Source of the DNA: an uncultured Synergistales bacterium
Lineage (GTDB): Bacteria; Synergistota; Synergistia; Synergistales; Aminobacteriaceae
NCBI GenBank assembly: GCA_905233645.1
Contig: CAJODZ010000015.1
Coordinates: 1-38,719 of the forward strand
Reading direction: 5' to 3'
Length of the DNA stretch: 38,719 nt
Both the position numbers and the translations under genes were made by a program. Below the pieces are notes generated by a model, which saw nothing but the letters and a program-made list of their open reading frames with translations, was not told the origin of the DNA and made no database searches. Below are positions 20,036-38,719 of the stretch, in pieces; position 1 is the first letter of the stretch, and the number at the start of each line of letters is the position of its first letter.

Positions 20036-20760
20036 TTAAATTGAATAGCTTATATTGTCTTCTGGTGTCCTTTTATGCGCCCAAATTACCGTTTCAAAAC
20101 CATAATGCGCCCATGTAAAACTGTTGTTCCTTTTTGTAATAATCCTGTCTGCAAAAACTCCAGCAATACGACACAAAATAGGTTTGTAATTTTGCGCTAC
20201 AAAATCTATAAACATGCGATTATTCATAGTTAAGCGTTTAATTACAGCTTTAAAGTCCGGTACATATTGGTGCGTTGGGTCATCATAAAAATTTAATGTA
20301 CCTCTGCGGCTTGGGAAAACAACACTCTGCTCACTTGGAAAACCCATACACAAACGTCCGCCAATTTTTAAACGTGAGCAAATTGCGTCTATCGTTTCCA
20401 TTGGGTGGTCGCAATGTTCTAAATTATGCCATGACATAGCAGCATCGAAATCGCCTGATAAATTTTTGATTGTATTAGGAAATTCATCGCCGGTTGTGAT
20501 TATGTATTCATCAGCTGCTTGTTTTGAGACTTCGTCAGTATTGTAATCGCCAACATCAACACCAACATAATATAAATCTGGTCTAGAAAGCTTCGTATTT
20601 TCTGGTGAATGATTACCGCAACCAACGTCTAAATATTTAGCACCGTATGATAAAGTTTGTAAAAATCTGTTACGCGAATGGGGACTTAAAATTGCACCTA
20701 TGCGTCGTTTAAATCGCTTAAGTAATTTGCCTGAGGGGGGGGGGTGAGATCTTTACTCAA
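20036..20760 (-). pseudogene. Class I SAM-dependent methyltransferase, out of frame at a C10 tract (likely phase-variable)
   Basis: The minus strand has AAGGAG (20775-20770), 9 nt, then TTG 20760, and MSKDLT before a run of ten C (20744-20735). In that frame translation stops 16 codons after the start. The methyltransferase frame opens just downstream and runs to 20036. It includes LLKRFKRRIGAILS, the SAM-binding KYLDVGCGNHSPENT, DVGDYNTD, DFDAAMSWHNLEHCDHP and GGRLCMGFP. With 11 or 8 C residues the two halves join into one protein of about 240 residues. I read this as a phase-variable gene captured OFF. Substrate unknown; Methyltransf_11/23-type enzymes often modify glycans or lipids. The long C run may also be a sequencing error. 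Confidence 0.82.
20735..20744 (-). repeat. Homopolymeric C10 tract (G10 on the plus strand) near the start of the methyltransferase gene
   Basis: By far the longest G or C run in this AT-rich window; the next longest are six. It lies 5 codons after the predicted TTG start, where slippage would switch the downstream frame on or off. Confidence 0.95.
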
Positions 20761-20837: not shown

Positions 20838-21647
20838 TCAATTACGAATTAAATTAAACAACGCTAACCACTTCTCACACGCAATCTCTTCCGCGCGCAT
20901 TTCTGGTTTTATTCCTGCGGATAATAATAAATTCGCATCGATGTTCATAAAATTTTTGAGATTGTTATAAATATTTTTGCGCCTGAATTTAAAAGCTTGG
21001 TGTAACAATTTGCTCCAAATCGGATTTTTAACGAGGTCGAAATTTTTATTAAGCGTTATCTCAACAATGGCTGAACTAACTTTCGGGATTGGTCTAAAAC
21101 ATTTCGGGGAGACTTCATGAATAATTTTCGCCGTCCCCATAGCTTCGACAGCAATCCCCAAAGGATAACGCGCTTTTGTTTTTATCGGAGCTGTTAATCT
21201 TTCGGCGGCCTCTTTTTGCAACATGTAAAGCTGATATTTAAAACCTAAATCCGCATATCCCAATAAACGCCAAATTAAAGGTGTCGTAATGTTATAAGGG
21301 ATATTCGCAATGATTTTGTTCGGAAAATTATTTTTTAACGCGTCATAATCAAAATTTACAGCATCAGCAAAATGTATCTCACAATTTTTATAACGCGCTT
21401 TTATATCGTTTAACGTCTCTTCTAAACGTGTATCAATCTCAAGAGTGTGTAAAAAATTTATTCCGGCCTCAAGTAACGCACGTGTTAAAACTCCTTGGCC
21501 AGCTCCAATTTCTAAAACAACATCAGAGCTTTTTAAATCAGCACGCGAAATCATGAGATTTAAAATATTTTTGTCAATTAAAAAATTTTGCCCGTAACGT
21601 TTTAAAGTGTGAAAATCGCTTTTATACTCTTTCGATGTCGTTAGCAA
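20838..21647 (-). CDS. rsmA: 16S rRNA (adenine1518/1519-N6) dimethyltransferase
   Basis: 269 residues, normal for RsmA/KsgA. It has the N-terminal RYGQNFLIDKNIL, the SAM motif VLEIGAGQGVLTRALLE, LEIDTRLEE, and the catalytic IANIPYNITTPLIW (NIPY motif). The C-terminal substrate domain includes VSPKCFRPIPKVSSAIV. It dimethylates two adjacent adenines near the 3' end of 16S rRNA during small subunit assembly. The TTG start at 21647 overlaps the end of the upstream GGDEF gene by 26 bp, with only a weak purine-rich ribosome site, so translation is probably coupled to it. Confidence 0.96.
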   Translation of the reverse strand: MLTTSKEYKSDFHTLKRYGQNFLIDKNILNLMISRADLKSSDVVLEIGAGQGVLTRALLEAGINFLHTLEIDTRLEETLNDIKARYKNCEIHFADAVNFDYDALKNNFPNKIIANIPYNITTPLIWRLLGYADLGFKYQLYMLQKEAAERLTAPIKTKARYPLGIAVEAMGTAKIIHEVSPKCFRPIPKVSSAIVEITLNKNFDLVKNPIWSKLLHQAFKFRRKNIYNNLKNFMNIDANLLLSAGIKPEMRAEEIACEKWLALFNLIRN

Positions 21648-37613: not shown

Positions 37614-38719
37614 TTATTTTCCGCGCAGACGTTGTACAAAATCCCACAAGCCCAAAATTTTTAACGCTTTTTTTACAATTCGTTTAGGTAATCTCAAAGC
37701 GAATAGTACAGCTCTTTTAGGAAACGTAATAATTTTGTCATGCGAAACGGCTTTATGAAGTCCGAACTCATTTAAATTTTTAACAAAGCTGTCATATGTT
37801 CTAGGCTTTTTGCGAGTTGTGAAATATGCGCCGTTATTTTTAATAATAAATTCAGGGTCAGCCGGTGCTAATTCAAAATCATCAGTATCAATTAAATTTA
37901 CAAGCTCTTGACCTTTTTCAGAACGGGCTAAAATTATTGACACACCGTTTTTATTAAAGCCCTTCATTTTTTCGGTCAAACCCCAATAATCAGCAACGGT
38001 AATATCAGCTTTGTGATTAAGTCCTCTGGCGTTACACGAAAAACATGGCTTATTAGCAAAATTAGCGAACGCATAACCGTAATCAGATTTATAAAAAACT
38101 TCGTCAAAAATTCTTCCGTCCTGAAATTCAGCTCTGATATAAAACGGTGTCCAGCCAAATTTTTTATAACGCACTGTGAAATTTGTTAAGCCAGAATTAA
38201 ATTTTTGCTCAAGCGAATTTATATAATCAGTGTGAACTTTTTTGAGTGTTGCTCCGAAGCAAATTAAATCGGCCGTGAAAAGATTTTGAGTGTTAATTTT
38301 GTTGTGTTCAAGATAAGAATATAAAGCCGCAATATCACAACCAAGCCCAACGAATAAAATTTTTTGTCCTTCATTTAATTTATCGCCCGCAAATTTAAAC
38401 ACCGGCTGATAAGTCCCATTAACGAAAATTCTTTTATCCGACGCGGCATATTTTGAACCTTTTAATTTTTGTAAATCATTTAGATTTTCGATGTAAGCAA
38501 ATTCGATATTCCTGCAATCATTTGAATACGTTGCTCCTATGACCGCGCCATTAAAATTTTTGATAAACCCTTCAGAAACAGCAGTTGCCGCTCCGCCCGA
38601 AGCTGAAGCTAATAATTTATTTGTATCCTTAAAAAATCTTGAATAAGCCTTTAAATTTTGATAAAGTGATAGCTGTTGCTCGTTGCTCGTTGCTCGTTGC
38701 TCGTTGCTCGTTGCTCGTT
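37614..38719 (-). CDS. FrhB-domain (coenzyme F420 hydrogenase beta-like) protein, 5' end beyond the window
   Basis: The minus-strand frame is open from the window edge to a stop at 37614, at least 367 codons. Past a repeat-encoded segment it reads ASASGGAATAVSEGF, GAVIGATYSND, ENLNDLQKLKGSKY, and then ILFVGLGCDIAALYSYL, CFGATLKKVHTDY, CFSCNARGLNHKADITVADYWG. These are the FrhB_FdhB N- and C-domain motifs with four iron-sulfur cysteines. Outside methanogens such proteins often sit in exopolysaccharide clusters and may act on glycans through an unknown flavin/iron-sulfur reaction. GTG 38402 is an internal codon, not the start. The frame enters a 7-bp tandem repeat at 38719. Confidence 0.85.
   Translation of the reverse strand, partial: RATSNEQRATSNEQQLSLYQNLKAYSRFFKDTNKLLASASGGAATAVSEGFIKNFNGAVIGATYSNDCRNIEFAYIENLNDLQKLKGSKYAASDKRIFVNGTYQPVFKFAGDKLNEGQKILFVGLGCDIAALYSYLEHNKINTQNLFTADLICFGATLKKVHTDYINSLEQKFNSGLTNFTVRYKKFGWTPFYIRAEFQDGRIFDEVFYKSDYGYAFANFANKPCFSCNARGLNHKADITVADYWGLTEKMKGFNKNGVSIILARSEKGQELVNLIDTDDFELAPADPEFIIKNNGAYFTTRKKPRTYDSFVKNLNEFGLHKAVSHDKIITFPKRAVLFALRLPKRIVKKALKILGLWDFVQRLRGK
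38675..38719 (-). repeat. Heptanucleotide tandem repeat inside the FrhB-domain gene, running off the window
   Basis: Six complete copies of AACGAGC (minus strand; GTTGCTC on plus) plus three bases up to the last base. Read in frame it encodes NEQRATS cyclically. Because 7 is not a multiple of 3, each copy gained or lost shifts the reading frame, and none of the three frames of the repeat contains a stop. Total copy number is unknown because the window ends within it. Confidence 0.95.

Follow-up and report, generated by a model that had tools for sequence, protein, structure and literature searches.

The window, by which we mean the whole 38,719-nt stretch of Synergistales DNA analysed here, carries on its minus strand a predicted methyltransferase gene whose start region contains a run of ten cytosines. 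In the direction of translation the order is an AAGGAG ribosome-binding site (20775–20770), CTAATAATT, a TTG start codon (20760–20758), AGTAAAGATCTCA and the C10 tract (20744–20735; G10 on the plus strand), with 9 nt between the ribosome-binding site and the start, and with the tract beginning 16 bases past the first base of the TTG. The coding part of the methyltransferase, 232 amino acids plus a stop codon, occupies 20036–20734 on the same strand. The gene stands alone, outside any glycan cluster, with an antiporter-subunit gene on one side and ksgA (RrnaAD family; 20838–21647, minus strand) on the other; ksgA lies upstream across a gap of 77 bp, and the two genes are possibly co-transcribed.

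The repeat unit is not a multiple of three in length, and the methyltransferase gene is complete in one register only, that of C8 and C11. Translated in silico from the TTG, tracts of 7, 8, 9 and 10 C yield products of 19, 240, 13 and 20 amino acids, respectively, and tracts of 11 and 12 C yield 241 and 14 amino acids. As assembled, the frame that enters the tract is closed by a TAG at 20698–20700 (minus strand). In the methyltransferase frame, no ATG, GTG or TTG occurs between the tract and codon 100; the first in-frame ATG is codon 100 itself, past the SAM motif YLDVGCGN, refuting the possibility that a downstream alternative start bypasses the tract. Since no intact alternative start is present, the assembled state of the gene is OFF. 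A promoter-spacer mechanism was also rejected for this tract, which sits 3′ of the start codon.

These results agree in most respects with the initial annotation, which had described, with the correct tract and coordinates, a start with a good ribosome-binding site leading into C10, a full methyltransferase frame opened by 8 or 11 C, and a gene caught OFF; its count of 16 codons before the stop has to be replaced by 20, the start codon can be specified as TTG, and the DNA comes from Synergistales and from no relative of Campylobacter or Neisseria, the genera that it cites for comparison. Its judgement that a ten-base C run in an AT-rich genome is very unlikely to persist by chance is also borne out: no C10 or G10 appeared in 100 dinucleotide shuffles of the window, and all remaining C/G runs in the window are of 6 nt or shorter.

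The protein encoded past the tract matches the Pfam family Methyltransf_23 (PF13489; E = 1.5e-9, 38.2 bits against a curated cut-off of 27), with weaker matches to Methyltransf_11 and Methyltransf_12; no NCBIfam model matched it. An AlphaFold2 model computed from an alignment of 22 homologues is confident (pLDDT 91.4, pTM 0.88), and its best-ranked PDB matches in Foldseek are methyltransferases, with 3l8d first, in a general class I resemblance that extends to natural-product enzymes and to CmoM, which acts on tRNA. Motif I (DxGxG) is present, and its sequence LDVGCGNH is invariant across the 22-sequence homologue alignment. Modelling thus places the protein among class I SAM-dependent methyltransferases with a Rossmann-like fold.

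The genomic surroundings of distant relatives suggest a possible substrate. We examined the flanks of six of these, from Sphingobacteriia, Ignavibacteriae, Kiritimatiellae, KSB1, Acidobacteria and Terriglobus, and all six have at least one glycan-cluster neighbour gene, including Wzy_C/O-antigen ligase, GT9, GT1, GT4 and epimerase genes, among others, in clusters of the O-antigen type (for Sphingobacteriia, the flanking genes were identified from their open frames, without a profile search). Such a neighbourhood is absent both at the window locus and in the congener G036 described below. Because the distant relatives adjoin glycan genes, the likeliest substrate would be a sugar of a surface polysaccharide.

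The C10 tract is one of several in its genome, a fragmented 1.57-Mb metagenome-assembled genome (MAG) that is 80% complete. A first-order model over the whole genome predicts 0.66 C/G tracts of at least 9 nt and 0.12 of at least 10 nt, against nine and six observed; the nine have lengths of 9, 9, 9, 10, 10, 12, 12, 13 and 21 nt. Long C/G tracts recur in all 43 genomes of the genus that were searched, at 2–59 per genome with a median of 14 (computed as C9 hits minus C10 hits). Five of these genomes (G027, G033, G037, G026 and G017) have 40–59 tracts of at least 9 nt each, above the median of 20 poly-G genes per genome for Campylobacter jejuni, a figure obtained with that study's own, partly shorter cut-offs (PMC6321876). 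C10-rich genomes also occur in other Synergistales genera (G046 of g5, G049 of g8, G158 of g48 and G165 of g50), so the habit may extend past the genus. Full-length MutS and MutL are encoded in the window genome and present in nearly all congeners, which rules out lost mismatch repair as the cause of the long tracts; any slippage is not raised by such a loss.

To score the registers of such tracts, we drew a sample of 61 from the window genome and other genomes of the genus, and called a tract joinable when the open frames upstream and downstream combine to at least 130 codons. Among the 52 joinable tracts, 18 are in frame (ON) and 34 out of frame (OFF). The in-frame share, 35%, is about one third, as random registers predict. 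When shorter runs were scored in the same way, the share in frame was 86% for C/G runs of 4–5 nt and 88% for 6-nt A/T runs. The coding strand carries G in 49 of the 52, the window methyltransferase being one of three with C.

Judged by sequence, most tract-bearing genes across the sample are glycan genes. LicD, Glycos_transf_1, DUF6625, FkbM and Caps_synth are the most frequent Pfam families, with IspD-like proteins and acetyltransferases as further classes. In the window genome, the tract is in the ON register in genes for a MenD-like TPP enzyme (L009, G tract), an NAD-dependent epimerase/dehydratase, an FkbM methyltransferase and a protein without assigned function, and in the OFF register, besides the window methyltransferase, in genes for a LicD protein (L012, G tract), an IspD-like cytidylyltransferase (L014, G tract) and an aminotransferase nearest to 2-aminoethylphosphonate aminotransferases (L013). 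The tract of this last gene, a G21 inside the gene at 2738–2758 of its locus, is exceptionally long. Together, L009, L013, L014 and L012 could make the decoration of glycans with phosphonates or phosphoalcohols subject to switching.

A search of 100 relatives returned a clear orthologue of the window methyltransferase in only one congener, uncultured Synergistales bacterium Reindeer_2_mag_23 (G036; contig CAJOMU010000008.1, the best match among named genomes), at 61% identity. The C-tract is missing from this orthologue; in its place, directly 3′ of the start codon, lies a 7-bp array of five perfect copies of ACGAACC, so that the same position of the gene holds a different frame-shifting repeat in each species. 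The orthologue is also out of frame, and one extra unit restores the frame in silico. Over 208 aligned codons, dN between the two genes is 0.34 against a dS saturated at about 4 (NG86), which indicates that purifying selection between the species maintains the coding part while both assembled copies are OFF. A conserved coding part in two OFF copies is the pattern expected of a switch, not of a pseudogene.

We therefore consider it highly probable that the window tract is a slipped-strand translational on/off switch, a contingency locus, of a surface-glycan methyltransferase. Slipped-strand mispairing in replication would add or remove C's just 3′ of the start codon. If the tract holds 8 or 11 C, translation from the TTG would run on in frame into the class I SAM methyltransferase; with 9, 10 or 12 C, it would stop within about 13–20 codons. 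The enzyme, when ON, would methylate a sugar of a cell-surface polysaccharide or lipopolysaccharide. The evidence in hand consists of the tract itself, its registers, the conserved coding part, the recurrence of tracts across the genus and the 7-bp repeat that replaces the tract in the congener. Switching, which the initial annotation had proposed, gains support from the conserved coding part, the different repeat in the congener and the genus-wide tracts at random registers. That slippage takes place in living cells we infer from these sequence patterns, and its selective value would presumably lie in evading recognition by phages, the host or protozoa.

Several other explanations were weighed. 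The true length of the tract might be 11 C, or 8, with a constitutively active gene, the assembled length being an assembly or sequencing error; the sequence is a MAG consensus, and homopolymers are the commonest site of length errors. Such errors would have to account for 34 of 52 long tracts lying out of frame over many separately assembled genomes, when C/G runs of 4–5 nt do so in about 14% of cases, and error would neither favour glycan genes nor give the congener a 7-bp repeat in just this position; we give this explanation a very small chance. Smaller still is the chance that the tract is fixed and acts through programmed frameshifting or slippage in transcription, so that full-length enzyme would be made steadily at a low level, with no heritable switch. 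Homopolymers do also provoke polymerase or ribosome slippage, and some leakage is compatible with the data, but tract registers look random, and 7-bp repeats, which do the same job, would not easily be read through by ribosomal or polymerase slippage. We regard as least probable a decaying pseudogene, in which a permanent frameshift would mark a gene on its way to loss. This would fit a methyltransferase that is out of frame in both genomes having it, with its clear orthologue confined to a single other genome among those searched; against decay, 232 codons remain open, the invariant residues of the SAM motif are kept, dN/dS is far below 1, and each species has its own unstable repeat rather than random lesions. 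The random registers, the controls and the purifying selection rule out assembly error and pseudogene decay as the main reading.

A different kind of alternative accepts the switch and moves the target of the enzyme from a surface glycan to a small molecule, a lipid or tRNA. This is unlikely, although less so than the explanations above: the fold search returned generic class I methyltransferases only, and the immediate neighbours of the gene are ksgA and the antiporter gene. It has to be set against the glycan-cluster neighbours in all six distant relatives with examined flanks and against the remaining switched genes of the window genome, which are mostly glycan genes.

Poly-G/C tracts are not the only repeats of this kind in the genome, which has about seventeen repeat tracts: nine poly-G/C tracts and about eight heptamer arrays. 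Most of these lie within or ahead of genes for glycan modification, and independent switching would give many combinations of surface glycans. One array lies in the window itself, where the contig ends within a (GAGCAAC)n repeat (38675–38719, minus strand; 6.4 copies with 100% match in TRF) at the 5′ end of a gene for an FrhB_FdhB_C-domain protein (37614–38672, minus strand; Pfam E = 5.5e-19). This array and the gene downstream of it are likely to form a second switch in the window. Elsewhere, arrays precede genes for two GT8 glycosyltransferases, an acyltransferase, a polysaccharide pyruvyl transferase and a hexapeptide transferase (OFF if reading begins at the ATG or TTG that lies upstream in the leader), and two arrays (L110 and L111) have no long open reading frame downstream.

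Near-identical leaders precede such arrays before different genes in the window genome. Leader A is present in four copies (loci L108, L112, L114 and L179) and leader B in five (loci L109, L110, L111, L183 and L184); neither was found in the 42 other genomes of the genus that were searched. A related leader, with TTGACA or TAGACA, 16–18 bp, a TATAAT-like box and 0–7 bp to the array, stands before heptamer arrays in many other genomes of the genus. The near-consensus −35/−10 pair of the leaders across the genus (L048–L072 and L109–L117) matches on average at 10.3 of 12 positions, whereas shuffles give 7.4 ± 0.15. Since the loci read have no start codon between array and domain, the arrays themselves appear to be translated; a promoter-like pair directly before a seemingly translated array is unexplained.

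It is possible, if short of probable, that the genus spreads phase variation by a portable leader of about 45 bp that is copied before unrelated glycan genes and makes each of them switchable. We tentatively define this module as AGAAAGGA, TTGACA or TAGACA, 16–18 bp, a TATAAT-like box and a CACGARC or AACGAGC array. Poly-C and heptamer repeats might likewise replace each other at one gene over evolution, a suggestion that we hold with the same reserve. Given that the copies are near-identical and private to the genome, recombination between leaders, with an exchange of genes, may also take place.

Large phasomes that are driven by repeats have been described chiefly from a few phyla, in pathogens and commensals with small genomes. 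The poly-G/C phasomes known from Campylobacter, Helicobacter and Neisseria (PMC6321876, PMC5953494) resemble the present system in their tracts of 9–14 G/C, mostly with G on the coding strand, in their random ON and OFF states and in their glycan-modifying targets; by contrast, the genomes here belong to Synergistales, carry up to 59 tracts each and have heptamer arrays coexisting with these. Among single genes, C. jejuni cj1426, a phase-variable capsule heptose 6-O-methyltransferase (PMC8437040), is likewise a SAM methyltransferase gene in which a homopolymer tract switches the methylation of a surface sugar, whereas the window gene lies in an unrelated phylum, with C on the coding strand, its tract beside the start and no glycan cluster around it. 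For the heptamer loci of the window genome and the orthologue in G036, a parallel is neuO of Escherichia coli K1, an O-acetyltransferase gene of phage CUS-3 with AAGACTC heptamers (PMC13001214), in which the copy number of a translated 5′ 7-bp repeat also sets the frame of a surface-sugar enzyme. Unlike neuO, a single prophage gene, the window genome has several unrelated glycan genes with near-identical leaders and units of CACGARC or AACGAGC. A phage-borne origin as for neuO was rejected, viral contigs having given only partial matches of 27–29%.

Among the open-licence papers searched, none deals with phase variation or tandem repeats in Synergistota, Synergistetes or Synergistales, a negative that is weak evidence because of this restricted coverage. 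The kind of system is thus already known, and its occurrence in this phylum is apparently undescribed. With a genus in which every genome searched has long G/C tracts, mostly in genes for surface glycans, the strategy reaches a further phylum, and existing metagenomes could address the speed of switching, selection by phages, protozoa or host factors, and the birth of repeats. The methyltransferase and its orthologue in G036, with two repeat types doing one job in one orthologous gene, amount to a natural experiment on convergent or replaced switches.

One tract of the window genome is intergenic, a G10 at 2337–2346 of L010 (G000:C4:13336–13345). It is flanked on one side by a HEPN/nucleotidyltransferase-like pair and on the other by a small DUF1232-like gene, named by eye, and lies inside a possible promoter, TTGACT-15-GATAAT, where changes in its length could cause transcriptional phase variation.
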